64,000 bases of DNA from Algoriphagus sp. CAU 1675 (lineage in GTDB: Bacteria; Bacteroidota; Bacteroidia; Cytophagales; Cyclobacteriaceae). Position numbers and translations under genes: made by a program. Where the stretch lies: the NCBI RefSeq assembly GCF_029222925.1, contig NZ_JARHUI010000006.1:186001-250000 (forward strand). Reading direction: 5' to 3'. The notes below the pieces were generated by a model. That model worked only from the letters and a program-made list of their open reading frames with translations. It did not search any database and was not told the DNA's origin. Shown piece after piece: positions 2,963 to 27,378 of the stretch; within the stretch, counting starts at the first letter, position 1, and each line of letters opens with the position of its first letter.

Positions 2963-3211
2963 CATTTTATTTCATGTTAATTGGTTATTTATCTTTATCT
3001 GAAATGCATTACCGGTTCTCAGCTATACGCAGGCAGGGATTTTCACCACTGAACTTCCTACGAAGAACTGAACTTAAAATTTAGCACTTTTCTGTCCTAC
3101 GAAGCACGAAACCCCTGCTTGCATATAGGTGATGTGTGTGCCTTGAATGGTGAATATAGGTCAAAACGATGACCGTTCCAACGGGTGAAAGTCCCTTAAG
3201 CGCGGGGGTAA

Positions 3212-3237
3212 TCCCGATTCTCGGGACAGGCTGTCCC
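3212..3237. repeat. Short palindromic repeat in intron domain I region
   Basis: TCCCGATTCTCGGGA (3212-3226) overlaps a second palindrome, GGGACAGGCTGTCCC (3223-3237). The core TCCCGA...TCGGGA is the same unit that interrupts domain V about 270 bp downstream, so this looks like one copy of a REP-like palindromic element. Confidence 0.5.
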
Positions 3238-3484
3238 GAAGCCAAGCAAGTGGCAAGCTGGTTTGCCGTGAGAGGACTGAGCGTCAAGAAAACTTCCTGT
3301 GGGAGTTTTTAGCTGAGGGCCAGACTGTAGGGGAGGTGAAAAAGGAGGATGGGCTATTGCCCAGAGTCCAATTTTAAGCACTACGATCACCTTGTCAAGA
3401 CTGAGAAAGAAGGGCTATGAATCCATGCTTTCCTATTACCTCAAATCGCAACCAATAATCCAGTGAACCGCCGTATACAGCCTG

Positions 3485-3555
3485 TCCCGATTTATCGGGA
3501 AGACCCGTACCGACTGTCCCGAAAATTGGGATACGGTGGCCCCGATTTTCGGGAT
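3485..3555. repeat. Three REP-like palindromes interrupting intron domain V
   Basis: TCCCGATTTATCGGGA (3485-3500), TCCCGAAAATTGGGA (3517-3531) and CCCCGATTTTCGGGAT (3540-3555) separate consecutive pieces of the group II intron domain V. Each forms a small hairpin. Removing the three units brings the domain V stem segments together. A related CCCGAAATCGGG lies at 8189-8200 beside the integrase gene. Confidence 0.55.
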
Positions 3556-3723
3556 AAATAGTGAGAGGTGCACCTCGCTAACTTAACGGTTGGTGAGGCC
3601 GTCTACTCGATTATTCGTCTTTAATCTGTAATGTTTGAAGTTCTTCATAGAAAGGAAGGAACTCAGACCGGCTTGGCTAACTCACTTTGAACAGAGAAGA
3701 TTATTAGAATTGATAAAAAGTAA

Positions 3724-5382
3724 TTATTGAGATGGAGGAGGAGGGGGTGGCGGAGTTGCTTCTCCTTCCAAATCTACAGCAATATTATTTTTCAATTTAT
3801 TCAGATTCTCTTCAATATAGGCCAGATTTTCATAGCCTGTCTTTTTAGCAAGTTCATAAGCTCTAGTATAAACTTCCAATGCTTCATCTGTTCGACCCTC
3901 AACAATCAAAGCCTCTGCATAACTGTCATAAGCATTGACTGACATGGGATAGTAAACCATAGCCAATTCAAAAGCGTTGAGGGCATCATTCACTTTATCA
4001 TCTCTCAGAAAATTGTATCCCACGGCATTCAAATAAAATTCTTCTGGCTTGTATGTTTCACCAATCAGTTCGCTGTATTGTTCGTAATGTTTTAAGGCAG
4101 CTTTTACATAACCCTCTTTTACAATGTTAGATTGGAAGGATTCCATCAGCAACTCTATTTCTGAAAGATCAATTTCGTTAAGAGAAGATTCTTTTGAAAA
4201 ATATAAATGCTTATACATCTGTAAATTACCTGAGGATTCTAATATCCCCTCCATATTACCTCCGCTTTTTGAAATTCGTACTTCAGAGTTTATGGCTCTT
4301 AAAGAGTCATAAAGGGTCAAAATCAATTGATCCTCCTTAATAACAGCATTATCTACTCGAATTTGATCTTGTACATGAGGTGAGTAAAATGAAAGGCTCG
4401 CTTCAGGTTTACCATCAACATCTTTAATCTCCATTATTTGGCCAAGATAGTCAGACCCATAAGTGCTGGTTCCATACCATTTTCCGATAATGTTTTTTAG
4501 CTCAAGGGGTTCACCTTTGCTCAAGACAGGAATGGAATAACTTGGTTCTGGCTGTACGATATCAGGGTAATCATTTGACTCTTGTAGGGCTTTGACCACT
4601 TTCCAGCTTGCTTCTTGTATCAATTGAGCTTCCTCATTAGAAAGATCAATTAGTAATTCATGGTCTATTGAAGGCTCACCACTACTCGATAGACGATAGC
4701 CTGAGAGAGCACTCGGAAGTCCTAGTGGATCATCAGCCATCAAAGTTGCGTAAAGTGTAACAGCTGATAAATAGGAGCCCATTGGTGATGGGTGTCCTCC
4801 ATCATCGGCATATAATTCAATCTTCGGATTTGCACGCAGTTCATCCCATACCAAACCAACAGGGGCCAGAATGGCCTTTAGTTCTTTGGCAATGGCTGTG
4901 TAAGCATGTGTCAATATGGCTTGTTCTTTTGGTTTATCCCTAACTGACCAAGTCATCAGGAACACTGTCTTAGCATCCGCTTTTTTAATTTCAGTATCGA
5001 ATTTTCTGGCATGTTCATAAAATCGCTCTGTTTGTCCAAAAAATATGTCGTTATCGATCATCACACCCATACCCAGCTTACTTTGCTCTTGGAGTACCAC
5101 ATAATCCCAATCACCGGTTCTTATGGTTTGAATTGTACCTTCATTTTGCCAATGATCGGCAAGGGTCATACCACCACCACTTATCAACTGAGTTTCTACT
5201 ACCTGATCCGGAAATTTCTCGTGTATTAATGCCTTTAGTAACTCCGGGCTGCTGTTATAGTAGGTATAACTATTTCCGATAAACAAAATCTTAATCTTAT
5301 CATCTTCTTCTTTAGGCTGTGAACAGGAGAGAACTACTATTAACAACGATAAAAGACTAAAAGATCTTTTTATATATATCAT
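3724..5382 (-). CDS. SGNH/GDSL-type hydrolase lipoprotein with TPR tail
   Basis: The 552-residue protein has a lipoprotein signal (LLSLLIVVLSC, Cys20). An SGNH hydrolase domain covers about 30-255. Block I is ILFIGNSYTYYN with the nucleophile Ser in GNS, the oxyanion region is near LISGGGMTLADHW, and a late DDGGHPSPMGSYLSA block carries the catalytic Asp/His. A beta-rich segment (about 290-400) and two TPR units (about 440-530) follow. The tail ends in seven consecutive prolines plus SQ. The family hydrolyses esters of small molecules or glycans at the cell surface; the substrate here is unknown. It lies directly beyond the last attC-like site of the cassette array but lacks the matching terminal repeat, so I do not count it as a cassette. 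Confidence 0.8.
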   Translation of the reverse strand: MIYIKRSFSLLSLLIVVLSCSQPKEEDDKIKILFIGNSYTYYNSSPELLKALIHEKFPDQVVETQLISGGGMTLADHWQNEGTIQTIRTGDWDYVVLQEQSKLGMGVMIDNDIFFGQTERFYEHARKFDTEIKKADAKTVFLMTWSVRDKPKEQAILTHAYTAIAKELKAILAPVGLVWDELRANPKIELYADDGGHPSPMGSYLSAVTLYATLMADDPLGLPSALSGYRLSSSGEPSIDHELLIDLSNEEAQLIQEASWKVVKALQESNDYPDIVQPEPSYSIPVLSKGEPLELKNIIGKWYGTSTYGSDYLGQIMEIKDVDGKPEASLSFYSPHVQDQIRVDNAVIKEDQLILTLYDSLRAINSEVRISKSGGNMEGILESSGNLQMYKHLYFSKESSLNEIDLSEIELLMESFQSNIVKEGYVKAALKHYEQYSELIGETYKPEEFYLNAVGYNFLRDDKVNDALNAFELAMVYYPMSVNAYDSYAEALIVEGRTDEALEVYTRAYELAKKTGYENLAYIEENLNKLKNNIAVDLEGEATPPPPPPPSQ

Positions 5383-5432
5383 TCTATTGGAATTGATTCC
5401 TACAATTATTTAATCAAAGCACTAATTATGAA

Positions 5433-5569
5433 GCATAACGGGCCCCGTGCTGGCGCCGGGCGATTTTGACTCGGTTCGCTAGTTTGGAAACAGAGTTCTT
5501 TTTAGGTAAAAGACTTGAGTTTGAAAACGCAAAGAGAGCCTGGCTCTAGCACGGTGTTGGTGTGCGTGA
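5433..5569 (-). repeat. attC-like site A, end of the cassette array
   Basis: Between GCATAAC (5433-5439) and GTTGGTGTGCGTGA (5556-5569) lie imperfect arms CCCGTGCTGGCGCCGGGC (5444-5461) and GCCTGGCTCTAGCACGGT (5538-5555). Fourteen of 18 positions pair, and the three G/A differences still allow G-T pairing on one strand. The AAC...GTT outer bases and mismatched arms are what integron attC sites look like. On the minus strand it follows the toxin-antitoxin cassette. Confidence 0.6.
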
Positions 5570-5851
5570 TTATAGACTTGGCTTCAAATGAAAGTTCTCA
5601 CCAATAGCTCTTAAGACTTTGAGAATAGTGTCAAATTGTGGTTTGGCATTTTCAGAAAGTGCTTTGTATAAACTTGGTCTGCTCAATCCGGTTTGTTCGG
5701 CTATTTTGGACATACCAATAGCCTTAGCAACATGACCGAGTGCAGCAACGATTTCATTTGCATTTCCTTCTTCTAGAACATGGTTGAGATATTCTTGAAC
5801 CATTTCTTCATTGTCAAGGTATTCAGCTATATCGAATTTTGAAGCTTTCAT
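5570..5851 (-). CDS. Antitoxin, HTH addiction-module family (HigA-like)
   Basis: The 93-residue protein contains a helix-turn-helix (GMSKIAEQTGLSRPSLYKAL, about 49-68) followed by ENAKPQFDTILKVLRAIGEN, the signature of the putative addiction-module antidote family. Such proteins bind and neutralise the partner RelE/HigB-type toxin and repress the operon. The start overlaps the toxin stop by 4 nt (5848-5851), so translation is coupled, with the toxin gene first, as usual for higBA. The stop codon lies next to the left terminal repeat of the cassette. Toxin-antitoxin pairs are frequent stabilising cargo in integron arrays. Confidence 0.9.
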   Translation of the reverse strand: MKASKFDIAEYLDNEEMVQEYLNHVLEEGNANEIVAALGHVAKAIGMSKIAEQTGLSRPSLYKALSENAKPQFDTILKVLRAIGENFHLKPSL

Positions 5852-6147
5852 GATGCTTTATATTTATCCCAAAGTTTTTTTGCCTTTTTTATGTCTTCTT
5901 CTTGAGAGCTTTTGTCTCCTCCTATTAGAAGTAAGATGAGTTGAGTTTGATGTCTTTTGAAGTAGATCCTGTAACCAGGACCAAAATGAATTCTCATTTC
6001 CTCAATGCCTTCGCCAACAGATGAAATGTCACCTAAATTTCCATCTTCGACGCGTTGAAGTCGCAATAAGATTCTCGCTTTGGCTTTGAAGTCTTTGAGT
6101 TTTCGAAACCACTTATCAAACTCGTCTGTTTTCTCAATTAGAAACAT
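5848..6147 (-). CDS. Toxin, RelE/ParE-HigB (Gp49-like) family
   Basis: I chose ATG 6147 (MFLIEKTDEFDKWF...). An upstream TTG at 6153 would add two residues. The 99-residue product fits the addiction-module killer family. Its signature is FDKWFRKLKDFKAKARILLR at the start, GDISSVGEGIEEMRIHFGPG in the middle and YRIYF...LLLIGGDKSSQEEDI toward the end. These are small ribosome-dependent mRNA interferases or related growth inhibitors; activity here is inferred from family. It is upstream of and overlapping the HTH antitoxin, and both share one cassette bounded by GTTGGTGTGCGTGA and TCATGCACACAAC. Confidence 0.9.
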   Translation of the reverse strand: MFLIEKTDEFDKWFRKLKDFKAKARILLRLQRVEDGNLGDISSVGEGIEEMRIHFGPGYRIYFKRHQTQLILLLIGGDKSSQEEDIKKAKKLWDKYKAS

Positions 6148-6200
6148 CTTCAAATGTAGTCACTTGGATACACTTTTGCAAATTGTTTTCTTCGGGGAAT

Positions 6201-6340
6201 TCATGCACACAACGGTCTCGGCTATGAGTAGTTGCGTGGGTTAGCACTTAACTTTGCAAGTACACACCGAACTGAAAATCCGCAAGGATTTTCAGAAGTA
6301 GGCGAGAACAAGCAATTACTTATAGCCATTGTTAGCGGTA
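6201..6340 (-). repeat. attC-like site B
   Basis: The site lies between TCATGCACACAAC (6201-6213) and GTTAGCGGTA (6331-6340). Arms GGCTATGAGTAGTTGC (6220-6235) and GCAATTACTTATAGCC (6312-6327) pair at 14 of 16 positions, with both differences being G/A (wobble on one strand). The interior has a perfect 10-bp hairpin, CTGAAAATCC/GGATTTTCAG (6272-6281/6286-6295). The AAC and GTT ends belong to the two neighbouring cassettes, as in integrons. Confidence 0.65.
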
Positions 6341-7168
6341 GTTTTTATTATTTCGTATTCTGTATGTTCTTATTATATTTTCTAATTCTCTGTGTGTTAC
6401 ATTCAGAGAGTCAATTTCTATTTTTTCAAACTCGTCTTCATCGTAGAAATAAGTCAGATAGGATTTAGCTGATTTGCCATAACCTTCCTGAACTACTTCC
6501 TCACTTTCTATATTCGACCAATTTTTAAATTCCACATTTTTAGTTTGGATTCCTTTCGAGTCAATTATTATTTTTGGTTTTTTATCAAGTGCTTTTCGAG
6601 ATTCCTTTATAGTGCTGTAAAGTCCAATTCCAGTCATTATTGCACCCAAAATATATTGTTTGGTTTCTCCTTTAGTGAAAAAATAGATTCCAACTCCAAT
6701 TATTAAAATCGAAACTCCGAGTTCAAAATAGTTATAAGCTTTCGAATAGTGAATTTCCATTTTTGGTGGAAGAGAATAATCTTCTCTATATTCATCATCT
6801 TGCTCAAATTTCTTTTCAAGTTTTTTAAGTTTACTCTTATCCTCGTTATTTCTGATTTCAGTTTTTTCGAAAATATTTCCGTCATTCCAAATCAATTTTT
6901 CTTGGATGGCTCTTTTCTTTAATTCGTGTACGTTTCTCACATTCTCAAATGCCCAAATTCTCCACTTGGTAATCATAAAACTCCAAATTAACCAAGCTAA
7001 AACAAACCCTATTAAAAAAGCTATTCCAATTCCCCAACCAGGAATTAAATTCTGTTTTGATAAGTATATAGCTAACGCTGGACAGCCAATAATTGCGATA
7101 AATACAGGAACATTCACTATTAAATGACCTCGTTTTATGGCTTTATCAACTGTTATTTGTTCTCTCAT
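6332..7168 (-). CDS. Cassette-borne membrane protein of unknown function
   Basis: The 278-residue protein has four predicted membrane segments in two hairpins. These are VNVPVFIAIIGCPALAIYLS and the following GIGIAFLIGFVLAWLIWSFM, then LGVSILIIGVGIYFF and YILGAIMTGIGLYS. Between them lies a charged cytoplasmic loop (about 85-140, Lys/Glu-rich). The C-terminal 75 residues (PKIIIDSKGIQTKNVEFKNW...) resemble a small PH-like module, by fold pattern only. It is AT-rich compared with its chromosomal surroundings. The TAA stop (6334-6332) lies inside the left cassette repeat GTTAGCGGTA, whose partner TACCGCTAAC is at 7187-7196, so gene and repeat form one unit. No family is recognised. Confidence 0.75.
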   Translation of the reverse strand: MREQITVDKAIKRGHLIVNVPVFIAIIGCPALAIYLSKQNLIPGWGIGIAFLIGFVLAWLIWSFMITKWRIWAFENVRNVHELKKRAIQEKLIWNDGNIFEKTEIRNNEDKSKLKKLEKKFEQDDEYREDYSLPPKMEIHYSKAYNYFELGVSILIIGVGIYFFTKGETKQYILGAIMTGIGLYSTIKESRKALDKKPKIIIDSKGIQTKNVEFKNWSNIESEEVVQEGYGKSAKSYLTYFYDEDEFEKIEIDSLNVTHRELENIIRTYRIRNNKNYR

Positions 7169-7186
7169 TCTGTTTTGGGTTCAAAT

Positions 7187-7328
7187 TACCGCTAACGTTT
7201 GGCGGTATGGTTAGTTGCCGATTTCGAAGCACTTTCCTATCAAGTTACAACTACTTTTGATACGAGCTGTGCCGCTCGAATACGCACTGCACCGGCAATT
7301 AACTATACCGCGTGTTGTAGCCAGTTTT
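7187..7328 (-). repeat. attC-like site C
   Basis: The site lies between TACCGCTAAC (7187-7196) and GTTGTAGCCAGTTTT (7314-7328). The 19-nt arms GCGGTATGGTTAGTTGCCG (7202-7220) and CGGCAATTAACTATACCGC (7293-7311) pair at 17 of 19 positions, with two G/A wobble differences. About 72 nt of interior sequence would form the variable terminal loop. This is the best-formed of the attC-like sites. Confidence 0.7.
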
Positions 7329-7343
7329 TAATTTTTTAATCAT

Positions 7344-8123
7344 CTATTTATCTTCCCAATCTGGTGATTTACAACTACCACCAATTATTTTCCAAGTCTT
7401 AGTTTGTTTGTCATAAACAAATCTATAATCAGGTATGTATCCATTTGTCCCTCCACAAGCAATAGTATAATTTGCTTCTCTAAAATGTAATCCACCTTTA
7501 AAGAAAATTCCTTTTTTTACTTCTAATGCCAAATCTCCGAAGTTTATGTCAATCGTATCTTTTGAAATCTGTTTATGCGTAACTCTATATAACTTTAAAG
7601 TCTTGCCGTGCTTATAGGCATAATCAAATAATTCATCTGCTGAAAGGAATTTATAAACGCTATTTTTGTCAAATTTATTCTTAATCCTTTCAGTCTGCTC
7701 GTTTGGCTCAATGAATTTCCATCCACTTGATAATTGTAAGTCAATCCTACTGTTTAGGGCTTTTAAATAAATACTATCCAATGTCGGTTTGTCAATTGGC
7801 TCTTGATTCTTTGGAGTTGTTTTAAGCAAAAAGCTAATTTGTTCGAAATATTTTTTCTTGGGGTAAATTAAAACCACTCCATTATCATTTCCATAAATGT
7901 ATTTTTGCTTCTCACTTTTTAAAACTTCAATTTTTTCAATCCAGCTTGGATTTATTGTATCTGGAATAGTATCTAAAAAATATTCAGTCTCATTCAACTT
8001 GATTACAAACTTAGGTAACGAATCAAGTGGCTCACTATTTATCCGAACAGAAATATCATTTAAATTCTGTCCGTAAGTAAAAAATGAAATTGAAAAAATC
8101 AATATTGTAAATATGTGTCTCAT
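7344..8123 (-). CDS. Cassette-borne secreted protein with TonB-plug-like segment
   Basis: The 259-residue protein starts with a signal peptide (MRHIFTILIFSISFFTYGQ). Residues about 60-93 (INPSWIEKIEVLKSEKQKYI, then YGNDNGVVLIYPKK) mimic the plug-domain motif of SusC/TonB receptors, where I..IEVLK.....YG..NGV..I is typical, but there is no barrel. The C-terminal 60 residues (FGDLALEVKKGIFFKGG..., ending with a Cys pair ACGG and GSCKS) look like a small beta domain. Function is unknown. The gene is AT-rich and bounded by GTTGTAGCCAGTTTT and AAAATTGGCTACAAC. It is the first cassette after the attI-like site, the position where integrons insert new genes. Confidence 0.75.
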   Translation of the reverse strand: MRHIFTILIFSISFFTYGQNLNDISVRINSEPLDSLPKFVIKLNETEYFLDTIPDTINPSWIEKIEVLKSEKQKYIYGNDNGVVLIYPKKKYFEQISFLLKTTPKNQEPIDKPTLDSIYLKALNSRIDLQLSSGWKFIEPNEQTERIKNKFDKNSVYKFLSADELFDYAYKHGKTLKLYRVTHKQISKDTIDINFGDLALEVKKGIFFKGGLHFREANYTIACGGTNGYIPDYRFVYDKQTKTWKIIGGSCKSPDWEDK

Positions 8124-8140
8124 ATGCAGTTCGGTTTCCT

Positions 8141-8220
8141 AAAATTGGCTACAACTTGTTTATTTATACGGGTTTTCCGTACATATTTCCCGAAATCGGG
8201 TGGATAAGTACGGGTTTTTG
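8141..8220 (-). other. attI-like site beside the integrase gene
   Basis: AAAATTGGCTACAAC (8141-8155) ends the first cassette. Overlapping it, AACTTGTTTATTTA (8153-8166; minus strand TAAATAAACAAGTT) is repeated exactly at 27251-27264, upstream of a solitary cassette. Two direct repeats of TACGGGTTTT (8167-8176, 8209-8218) and the hairpin CCCGAAATCGGG (8189-8200) lie between it and the integrase stop. Integron attI sites also combine a G/TT crossover with flanking direct repeats. The assignment is inferred from position and the duplication. Confidence 0.55.
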
Positions 8221-8232
8221 TTGTTTTATTTT

Positions 8233-9339
8233 TCACAAATCATCAAAAGGACTCCTTATCCGCTGAAGGCTGTTTTGACTGACGTGAGTATATATTTCCG
8301 TGGTTTTACTAGAGTTATGCCCTAACAGCTCCTGAATATACCTCAGGTCCGTTCCGCTTTCCAAGAGGTGAGTGGCATAGGAATGTCTTAGCCAGTGAAG
8401 TGTGACAGGCTTTTTGATTCTTGCTTTATGGACAGCAGCTTTTAATACTTCCTGCAGACTGTTCGGACTATACTTTTGTCCTTTGGTCATTCCTTCAAAC
8501 AGGTACTCTTTTGGCTTTTCCACCAGGTAATACTCCCTCAACATTTCCACTGTCTTTCCGCTGATGGGAACCATCCGGTCTTTTGCACCCTTGCCCTGAT
8601 TGATACGTAGAAGACCCCGCTTTGAGTCCACATCGATGAGTTTCAGTCCCAGCAGCTCTCCCCTTCTCAGCCCACAGGCATAGATCAGACTGAGCATCGT
8701 CCGGTGTTTGATGTTTTTAGGAGCTTGGAGTATGGCTTTCACTTCTTCTTTGCTGAGTACATGGGGTAATAGTCTCGGTTTCTTAGGTCGCTCGATTTCC
8801 ATTGGTTCAAGCTTCCGCTTCAGTTTGTTTGAAAAATACAGCTTTACCGCACTGATTACCTGGGATTGAAAGGCTACTGAATATTTTCTCCTAAGGATAT
8901 AATTTTGATGGAAGTTTTCCAAATCTTCACTGCTTATTTCTTCCGGATTTTTGTTGTTCATGAATCGGAAAAATAGACTCAGGCTTTGGCTGTAGGTTTT
9001 GATGGTGGATTCAGCATAGCGCCGGTTTTGCATCCATTCAGCAAATTTCCGGATCTCTTGGTTCAGACCTTTGCTTAATTCAGGAAGTTCGGCAGGAAGT
9101 TGTTCGGGCTGTATTTTTTTAAATTCCGAGTAGTCCAGCCAGGCTTTGCTTTTAAAAAGCGCGAGAAGTTGCTCCAGAATCGTTTCCTGATACGGAAGAA
9201 TCCAGGCCTTTCTTTTTCCGTTCCAAACAGCTCCCGATAGGGTTTTGACTAGTTCTTTCAGCTCTTCATCGTATGCAAATTCCAACAGGACCAAGCCCTT
9301 ATTCTTCCAAATGCCGCTTTTGACAAAAATGGTCTTCAT
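8233..9339 (-). CDS. Tyrosine recombinase, integron-integrase-like
   Basis: The 368-residue protein has an unusual N-terminal extension (1-95) with a WNGKRKAWILPY motif that recalls HARP-type modules. A SAM-like core-binding domain (about 95-185) and a catalytic domain (about 195-368) follow. Catalytic residues are Arg in ACGLRRGEL, His315-x-x-Arg318 in HWLRHSYATHLL, His341 in LGH and Tyr350 in TEIYTHVS. The last residues, RIRSPFDDL, resemble the RSPLD ending of integron integrases. The insertion that marks canonical IntI between the first Arg box and the HxxR box is absent. The gene reads toward the adjacent cassette array, an orientation described for the Treponema denticola integron. It presumably excises and inserts the cassettes. 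Confidence 0.85.
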   Translation of the reverse strand: MKTIFVKSGIWKNKGLVLLEFAYDEELKELVKTLSGAVWNGKRKAWILPYQETILEQLLALFKSKAWLDYSEFKKIQPEQLPAELPELSKGLNQEIRKFAEWMQNRRYAESTIKTYSQSLSLFFRFMNNKNPEEISSEDLENFHQNYILRRKYSVAFQSQVISAVKLYFSNKLKRKLEPMEIERPKKPRLLPHVLSKEEVKAILQAPKNIKHRTMLSLIYACGLRRGELLGLKLIDVDSKRGLLRINQGKGAKDRMVPISGKTVEMLREYYLVEKPKEYLFEGMTKGQKYSPNSLQEVLKAAVHKARIKKPVTLHWLRHSYATHLLESGTDLRYIQELLGHNSSKTTEIYTHVSQNSLQRIRSPFDDL

Positions 9340-26410: not shown

Positions 26411-26545
26411 AACGGGATTCAGCTTGGAGACGGCGGGCATTAAAACCCGATTCACTGTCAGCAACGGTTATAGTTTATTAAATGTAATCACTTTCAAATT
26501 AGCACTTTCCGCCCGCTTGCTCTTAGCCAATGTTACCGCCATTTG
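26411..26545 (-). repeat. attC-like site of the solitary cassette
   Basis: The site runs between AAC (26411-26413) and GTTACCGCCATTTG (26532-26545). Arms AGCTTGGAGACGGCGGGC (26421-26438) and GCCCGCTTGCTCTTAGCC (26511-26528) pair over GCGGGC, GAG and GCT with internal mismatches. It is in the same relation to the gene, just past its stop codon on the minus strand, as in the main array. Confidence 0.55.
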
Positions 26546-26546
26546 T

Positions 26547-27221
26547 TCATTTCTTCTTTTTTGAATTTATGGTTTGTTGAACCAAGACGACTCTTAATTC
26601 TTTTTCCCAAAAGTCGATATTAAGTATGTTTTCCCTTAAGAATTGTTCGGTTTTTAATGGTTCTGTATGTTCCCATGAATTTAGAAATCGGACTATTTTC
26701 TCTTCAATCTTTCTTTGAATCTCTTCGGGTTGTTTGTCTGCCCAAATTGATTCTGGAAAACCAAACTTGTATTTAGCTTCAAGAGAAATTTTCAAAGAAT
26801 CATTCACTTGTTCACTGGTTTGTAAAAGTTGTTCTTGGTCACATGCAATTATTTCACTTTTTAAGTCCTTACCTGCCAAATCAATAGCGGATAGGATATT
26901 AAAATCAACATTCCTATTTCTACTTTTGAGTTCTTTAATTCCTTCTAGAATGTTGGATAGGTTTCCGTTTGCTAAAAAATGATTAGCCAGTTTTTCGATT
27001 GGTATTTTATGTTGCTCCCTAATTCCTTTAACACCTTCAAAAAATTCTTTTTTTATACAGAAATTTTTTTGAGCAATCTTGGCTTCTTCGATGGTCAAAT
27101 CTAGTCCAAATGTCTTTGCTCTATACTTTGCAAAATAAACTGGTGCTTTCTTTACAAAGAGGATTAACCCTACAAAAAAGCAGATTAGTATTATTAGAAA
27201 AATTATTAAGTCCCAATTCAT
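26547..27221 (-). CDS. Cassette-borne FloA-like membrane protein lacking the SPFH domain
   Basis: The 224-residue protein starts with one membrane segment (LIIFLIILICFFVGLILFV). Residues about 80-130 (LANHFLANGNLSNILEGIKE; VDFNILSAIDLAGKDLKSEI) closely echo the N-terminal part of flotillin-like FloA (pattern LEAHYLAGGNV...; ...AAAIDLAGRDV). The SPFH domain that should follow is missing. Instead there is a charged helical tail (FPESIWADKQPEEIQRKIEE) ending in SKKKK. I infer a miniature FloA relative, perhaps acting on membrane microdomains or on FloA itself. It is AT-rich, sits alone between galM and nagZ, and is bounded by GTTACCGCCATTTG/CAATTGGCGGTAAC. Confidence 0.7.
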   Translation of the reverse strand: MNWDLIIFLIILICFFVGLILFVKKAPVYFAKYRAKTFGLDLTIEEAKIAQKNFCIKKEFFEGVKGIREQHKIPIEKLANHFLANGNLSNILEGIKELKSRNRNVDFNILSAIDLAGKDLKSEIIACDQEQLLQTSEQVNDSLKISLEAKYKFGFPESIWADKQPEEIQRKIEEKIVRFLNSWEHTEPLKTEQFLRENILNIDFWEKELRVVLVQQTINSKKKK

Positions 27222-27239
27222 GTTGCTATCTGTCTTTTA

Positions 27240-27264
27240 CAATTGGCGGTAACTTGTTTATTTA
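27240..27264 (-). other. Orphan attI-like insertion site
   Basis: CAATTGGCGGTAAC (27240-27253) is the upstream terminal repeat of the solitary cassette. AACTTGTTTATTTA (27251-27264) matches 14 of 14 bases at 8153-8166 beside the integrase gene. No integrase gene is nearby, so this looks like a secondary insertion site used by the same recombinase. Confidence 0.55.
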
Positions 27265-27378
27265 CGCCATAAAGGTTCGATTATCCCTCTATTTTGGACG
27301 GCTAAGCGCCATAAATTCAATTATTTAATAGCGTTTATTTTAAGTAAAATAGCTTCTTTTCCCGAATTCCCCTGCTTC

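Follow-up and report, generated by a model that had tools for sequence, protein, structure and literature searches.

Integrons spread resistance genes. The I2 helix is held to have enabled the recombination of cassettes as single strands and to be unique to the integron integrase IntI (PMC7790495), and the Bacteroidetes have been thought nearly integron-free, at first with cassette-free examples only and later with a single complete integron, that of Salinibacter ruber (PMC9024848). The rAID (recombinase-associated acquired interbacterial defence) arrays of gut Bacteroidales, a recombinase with an array and conserved intergenic motifs, have been described with their biogenesis unresolved and integrons unmentioned (PMC12247911). 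Here we analyse a cassette array in a 64,000-nucleotide stretch (the window) of the 3.81 Mb genome of Algoriphagus sp. CAU 1675, a member of the Bacteroidota (contig NZ_JARHUI010000006.1, positions 186,001 to 250,000), in which a tyrosine recombinase without the I2 insertion is followed by an attI-like site and three cassettes with attC-like hairpins. The original prediction, made from the window alone, was an integron-type capture system of a distinct recombinase lineage. It is supported by genome-wide association, by the attI boundary and by the matching of cassette ends, and we consider it very probable that the array is a gene-capture platform of this type, of a lineage separate from IntI. 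A literature search, covering few preprints and subscription papers, found no earlier description of such a system.

The array is read from the minus strand in the order recombinase, attI-like site, cassette 1, site, cassette 2, site, cassette 3 and degenerate site. The 368-residue recombinase (8233-9339, minus strand) is followed by the attI-like site (8156-8232, minus), which extends from the recombinase stop to the first cassette, is supported by an attI alignment and has the final bases ...CCCGTATAAATAAACAA|GTT. The start of cassette 1, predicted via R'' of the first site (R'' being the outer arm at the cassette end and R' that at the cassette start), was located 80 nt past the recombinase stop. 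Cassettes 1 (7314-8155, minus) and 2 (6331-7196, minus) each hold a single gene, at 7344-8123 (259 aa) and 6332-7168 (278 aa), between the termini GTTGTAGCC and GGCTACAAC and the termini GTTAGCGGTA and TACCGCTAAC, respectively. Family searches gave no match for the cassette 1 protein and no significant match for that of cassette 2, which is a probable membrane protein. Cassette 3 (5556-6213, minus) carries a toxin-antitoxin pair, the toxin (5848-6153) belonging to TIGR02683 and the antitoxin (5570-5851) to TIGR02684, and its termini, GTTGTGTGCATGA and TCACGCACACCAAC, match with a 1-nt indel. The hairpins of the array are 123 nt long. With the covariance model R1 described below, the site after cassette 1 (7194-7316), also identified by its fold, scores 95.9 bits (E 3e-20) and that after cassette 2 (6211-6333) 72 bits (E 2e-14), both on the plus strand and both having belonged to the training set of the model, and the final, degenerate site (5437-5558, plus) scores 29.2 bits (E 4e-4). 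Every feature given in the original prediction is found at its coordinates. The prediction had located the three cassettes by their matching GTT...AAC termini, had described palindromes between them whose arms differ mainly by G/A, such that one strand (the plus or bottom strand, as we find) folds via G-T pairs, and had the cassette genes read away from a recombinase at one end; we add that the recombinase lies upstream and reads in the same direction.

The recombinase has an N-terminal HARP-like domain of about 90 residues, a SAM-like core-binding domain and a catalytic domain, with matches to Pfam PF00589 and PF13495. Its C-terminus, IRSPFDDL, contains the predicted RSPFD ending and conforms to the (R/K)SP.D terminus of integron integrases, and the I2 insertion is lacking as was also foreseen. 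The protein scores 213 bits with the integron integrase model TIGR02249, under the cut-off of 265, and 227 bits with NF040815 ('site-specific tyrosine recombinase/integron integrase'), passing the cut-off of 220. This product name is already borne by a relative on a Chryseobacterium plasmid; the NF040815 model covers archaeal XerA together with numerous simple tyrosine recombinases and does not mention cassettes. XerA is the closest solved structure in a sequence search of the PDB, and VchIntIA is aligned as two stretches flanking its insertion, a region that spans 26-31 aa in every row of the new family versus 68 aa in IntI. In a careful tree the new family, which includes an A. ornithinivorans relative 72% identical to the window recombinase, forms one clade (82/84) and IntI a separate one (100/100), with I2-less enzymes of archaea, Patescibacteria and proteobacteria adjoining IntI; a quick tree did not recover the new family as a single clade. 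The I2-less relatives placed near IntI or the new family include L205, L208, L216 and L217 (Patescibacteria), L211 and L223 (archaea) and L195 (Spirochaetota), with no R1 sites nearby, other site types not having been sought.

The rule of matching ends, proposed from three cassettes, applies to most of 173 cassettes: the nine bases after GTT agree with the reverse complement of the nine before AAC at 6.66 of 9 positions, versus 2.99 when shuffled and 3.32 across a site. Such matching within a cassette is what an excised circle requires to make one continuous attC. A purine follows GTT in all common termini; the RRY of the integron GTTRRRY is not retained, the R box here being specific to the cassette. 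Across 58 longer loci and the window we counted 253 sites, all on one strand per locus with none opposite. In 40 of 41 loci the array has the recombinase at its 5' head, in 37 of them co-directional with the cassettes and in three divergent; an upstream, co-directional recombinase is unlike most IntI integrons. The cassettes have a median length of 878 nt and a median open reading frame of 246 aa, the longest frame of each cassette being sense in 139 and antisense in 11. The 139 cargo proteins match 147 Pfam families, diverse and with none dominant, including defence and metal-resistance genes; examples are Gabija GajB, GmrSD, a type II methyltransferase, SspE, MerT/HMA, MFS and glyoxalase.

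In 31 of the 38 co-directional loci the start of the first cassette, as predicted solely from R'' before the first site, recurs as an exact 9-mer no more than 105 nt past the recombinase stop, the boundary often being preceded by a conserved ...ATAAATAA|GTT or ...ACAAAC|GTT. Two related genomes (G042 and G009) are 95.75% identical through recombinase and attI over 3131 nt, stopping exactly at the GTT (position 5561 of L039), beyond which their cassettes differ, so cassette content varies between close relatives as the prediction demanded. Whole cassettes with their downstream core also recur in loci of different classes: L137 and L145 share one at 90.8% identity in a match of 1019 nt that runs from -4 to +18 of the cassette, and L129 and L148 are 87% identical over 3614 nt. 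Cassettes thus travel between distant genomes as units. Given that isolated sites occur in many genomes and that a repeat is inserted beside sites at L119, the palindromes might be thought repeat elements between genes (REP- or MITE-like, or terminators), with the recombinase nearby through coincidence or a common insertion hotspot. We give this almost no credence, as it fails to explain the matching of ends within cassettes, the exact attI boundary, the orientation of sites on a single strand and the transfer of gene and downstream core together. At L119 itself (G096), within one array, GTTGAAGAAGAATTCGCTCCGCTCTTCTTCTTC follows GTT at four of six sites, and may be a small hairpin repeat inserted at the boundary or a gene-less cassette. 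A plasmid of Chryseobacterium sp. SNU WT5 (L244) bears the recombinase with at least three sites, which indicates that the system is itself mobile too.

The distribution of sites connects them to the new recombinase family. As the original prediction had proposed, the covariance model built from the sites was run on related genomes, and it recovered sites throughout the genus and the phylum: they are present in 53 of 59 genus genomes and in all 39 of good quality (2-29 sites each; 13 in that of the window), and in 131 of 247 genomes of the Bacteroidota, from 76 of 121 genera. A recombinase profile (A3, threshold E<=1e-63) marks the family in 82 of these 247 genomes, and sites occur in 73 of the 82 (odds ratio 15, p=1.1e-16). 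Canonical IntI is above its cut-off in 70 of the 247, with no enrichment for sites (odds ratio 0.56). In the class of the window 47 of 61 genomes have sites and 37 the recombinase (36 of them with sites), and a single one has IntI, which was not found in the window genome. Among 18 genus loci, the 13 whose contig continues for over 1.3 kb beyond the recombinase all have sites there, the contig of the remaining five stopping 14 to about 1200 nt past the recombinase gene. R1 sites were found in 21 of 80 named loci, all Bacteroidota, and in none of 40 loci with non-family recombinases (L202-L243 minus L209 and L213). Both expectations of the prediction, that recombinase homologues would lie beside the repeats and that the repeats would not be equally frequent in genomes with and without them, are therefore borne out.

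Canonical IntI was considered as the partner enzyme of the sites and rejected, as site presence follows the new family instead. A related explanation, that the arrays are recombinase-free attC clusters left by ordinary IntI integrons and the adjoining Xer-like recombinase is unrelated, draws on the IntI present in other classes of the phylum, and on strong sites in 45 of 165 genomes in which the family recombinase was not detected; these genomes may carry remnants without a recombinase, divergent recombinases that escaped detection, or gaps in a draft assembly. However, it is highly improbable in view of the opposite behaviour of the two enzyme families in the association, of the scarcity of IntI in a class where most genomes have sites, and of the attI that immediately follows the new recombinase at dozens of loci.

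A hairpin scan of the 18 genus loci, picked by recombinase alone, found like hairpins downstream of the recombinase in uniform orientation, and an alignment of 22 sites, from AAC through GTT on the folding strand, was the basis of R1. RNAalifold predicts from it a 17-bp stem with compensatory changes in 15 of 17 pairs; in a 23-pair structure 18 pairs show changes on both sides, and 94.3% of cells are paired, versus 64.2% when shuffled and never more than 47% when slid. A T-A pair, and a G.U pair in the L arm, are unchanged in all 22 sites, and R' position 11 is A in 151 of 151, opposite a non-partner base in 149. On our reading, this position and the invariant G.U place a conserved T at corresponding places in both arms of the folded bottom strand. 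Unlike attC, with its bulged bases, the L stem is a continuous helix of about 20 bp with the invariant G.T pair, and the strand asymmetry consists of wobbles and mismatches with no bulged bases. Folding of the junctions favours the bottom strand of the circle over the top in 118 of 135 cases (p=2e-19) and the circle over the linear array junction in 130 of 135, with energies of -28.5 (circle, bottom strand), -25.4 (top) and -22.5 kcal/mol (linear junction).

This structure also bears on whether the cassettes might be mobilised in double-stranded form by a Xer-type enzyme acting on dif-like sites, the palindromes merely supplying two inverted binding arms. Such a mechanism, which we judge unlikely, would fit the position of XerA as the closest solved structure and the helix without bulges, and the covariation could arise from dyad symmetry alone. 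The dyad symmetry of double-stranded DNA does not, however, explain an invariant wobble on one strand, and the asymmetry is constant, in the G.U of every L arm and the non-pairing A of R'. Nor would it account for the confinement of sites to one strand or the greater stability of the bottom strand. The R arms, moreover, are cassette-specific and complementary only within a cassette, so that the circle form alone contains the palindrome in full. In contrast to Xer/dif modules, double-stranded with two half sites of about 11 bp and a short spacer, the sites here have a long loop, a far greater length and strand asymmetry.

The gene-capture platform resembles integrons in its sequence of recombinase, attI and cassette array, in cassettes of one or few genes that face a single direction, in the attC-like hairpin at their 3' end, in R''/R' complementarity within the cassette, in common ends of AAC/GTT plus purine and, in most cases, in a bottom strand that folds better than the top. 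Among the features of IntI-type integrons, an attI beside the recombinase and a cassette array with its own R''/R' pairing are present here, and the I2 insertion is not; in every anatomical comparison the system behaves as an integron does, yet its recombinase, of a separate clade and often with the N-terminal HARP-like domain, does not belong to IntI. Pfam HARP matches this domain in nine of 19 relatives (best E 8e-4), with no match for the window protein itself, and exceeds the curated cut-off in a Spirochaetota relative placed outside the new clade. A structure model of the domain (pLDDT 77) retrieves SMARCAL1 HARP (4o66) with Foldseek at rank 2 (E 0.12), behind YciH (0.03). HARP binds forked DNA, and we therefore propose that the N-terminal domain may read folded DNA.

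A cassette would on this basis be excised as a circle, rebuilding R''-core-R' into one long hairpin. The recombinase would act on the folded bottom strand, which would be marked by conserved mismatches (G.T or T) at equivalent places in both arms, and the hairpin would be inserted at the GTT of attI or attC. More tentatively, the HARP-like domain of many members might help to read the folded single strand in place of the I2 helix of IntI. That a phylum-wide lineage apart from IntI acquired or has kept the recombination of single-stranded cassettes without I2, recognising folded hairpins via conserved wobble pairs (and, in many members, the HARP-like domain) as a second solution to the integron reaction, seems to us an evenly balanced proposition. 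Several points weigh against our interpretation. The 45 genomes with strong sites lack a detected family recombinase; 27 loci of the 41-locus set, those beyond the genus, were picked because sites were already listed nearby; and differing gene content and shared cassettes are indirect evidence of excision and integration. The HARP link is weak by fold, and a subgroup of about 280 aa lacks the domain. Finally, the L stem carries a G.T wobble and not the bulged extrahelical bases of attC, so that single-strand use of the sites is inferred.

The window contains two further attC-like sites, absent from the original prediction and found by the covariance model. One (3011-3135, plus; 70.1 bits, E 6e-14) has its AAC/GTT ends mutated to ACA/GGT and matches no cassette end. 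The GDSL/TPR gene between it and the array (3135-5437) was considered as a matched cassette and rejected, as no R'' fits GTTATGCTTC; the window array therefore ends with cassette 3. The other site (26411-26534, plus as folding strand; 58 bits, E 5e-11; outside the training set) belongs to a solitary attI-cassette-attC island 17 kb from the main array. Its cassette (26547-27253, minus) holds a gene (26547-27221, 224 aa) whose N-terminus is weakly FloA-like by Pfam, with R' GTTACCGCCA at 27253, to which R'' AATGGCGGTAAC, preceding the site, fits across 10 nt. Immediately upstream of the cassette, with no recombinase, a second attI-like sequence (27254-27345, minus) aligns with the attI of relatives, ATGGCGCTTAGCC...TATGGCGTAAATAAACAA|GTT. 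The recombinase-free island (26411-27345), which may be an orphan remnant or a secondary insertion, separates two convergent chromosomal genes; in G058 the ends of this gene pair are only about 40 nt from each other.

Relatives of the system are found in two arrangements already described. In Parabacteroides and Bacteroides plasmids (P. distasonis, L246; B. ovatus, L251) a relative of the recombinase (36-38% identity) is followed by type VI secretion system (T6SS) immunity genes in the rAID arrangement. The rAID enzyme, placed by sequence likeness, falls to the L194/L110 subgroup within the new clade. Co-oriented small genes, intergenic hairpins, recombinase and matching cassette ends are shared, and the attI-like sequence, TTATAAATAA|ATT, is close to that of Algoriphagus. 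The short rAID hairpins escape detection by R1 and were checked via end matching: the gene units match at their own ends over at least 8 nt in 14 of 19 cases, versus 5 of 186 mismatched pairs. They differ in their short sites (about 55 nt), an R' opening ATT and a cargo of T6SS immunity genes, whereas the window cargo is a toxin-antitoxin pair, a membrane protein and a protein without family match, and no orphan T6SS immunity gene. The rAID arrays follow the same end-matching rule, and we file rAID as a previously described branch of this system.

The second arrangement concerns tet(X), a tigecycline-resistance gene. The 'xerD/tpnF' gene of the xerD-tet(X3) module on Acinetobacter plasmids matches the new recombinase family at 45% identity; papers on tet(X) mention the xerD neighbour and no integron. 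Four tet(X) plasmids (pHH1107, p1681-tetX, pYPE10-190k-tetX4 and p29FS20-1; L247 to L250) were examined. In Acinetobacter-type plasmids the relative is followed by an attI-like inverted repeat and then by tet(X3) or tet(X5), opening GTTATGTGCC. On Empedobacter p1681-tetX the termini of the gene are GTTATGTGCC and GGCACATAAC, with an R1 site after it (83 bits, E 5e-18), and in Escherichia coli pYPE10 tet(X4) ends GGCACATAA, breaking off there. To judge from these sequences, tet(X3), tet(X4) and tet(X5) belong to the system as cassettes, whether truncated or, in Empedobacter, intact. The Acinetobacter and E. coli copies have a truncated 3' site beside ISCR2/ISVsa3, so that they now rely on other elements.

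With a phylum-wide system that lacks I2, the claim about the I2 helix becomes open to direct testing. It also offers a mechanism for the assembly of rAID immunity arrays (PMC12247911), and for the question, raised in PMC7473080, of whether 'xerD' mobilises tet(X). The covariance model provides a practical detector of a large unseen pool of mobile genes, which includes defence systems and a gene for resistance to a last-resort antibiotic.

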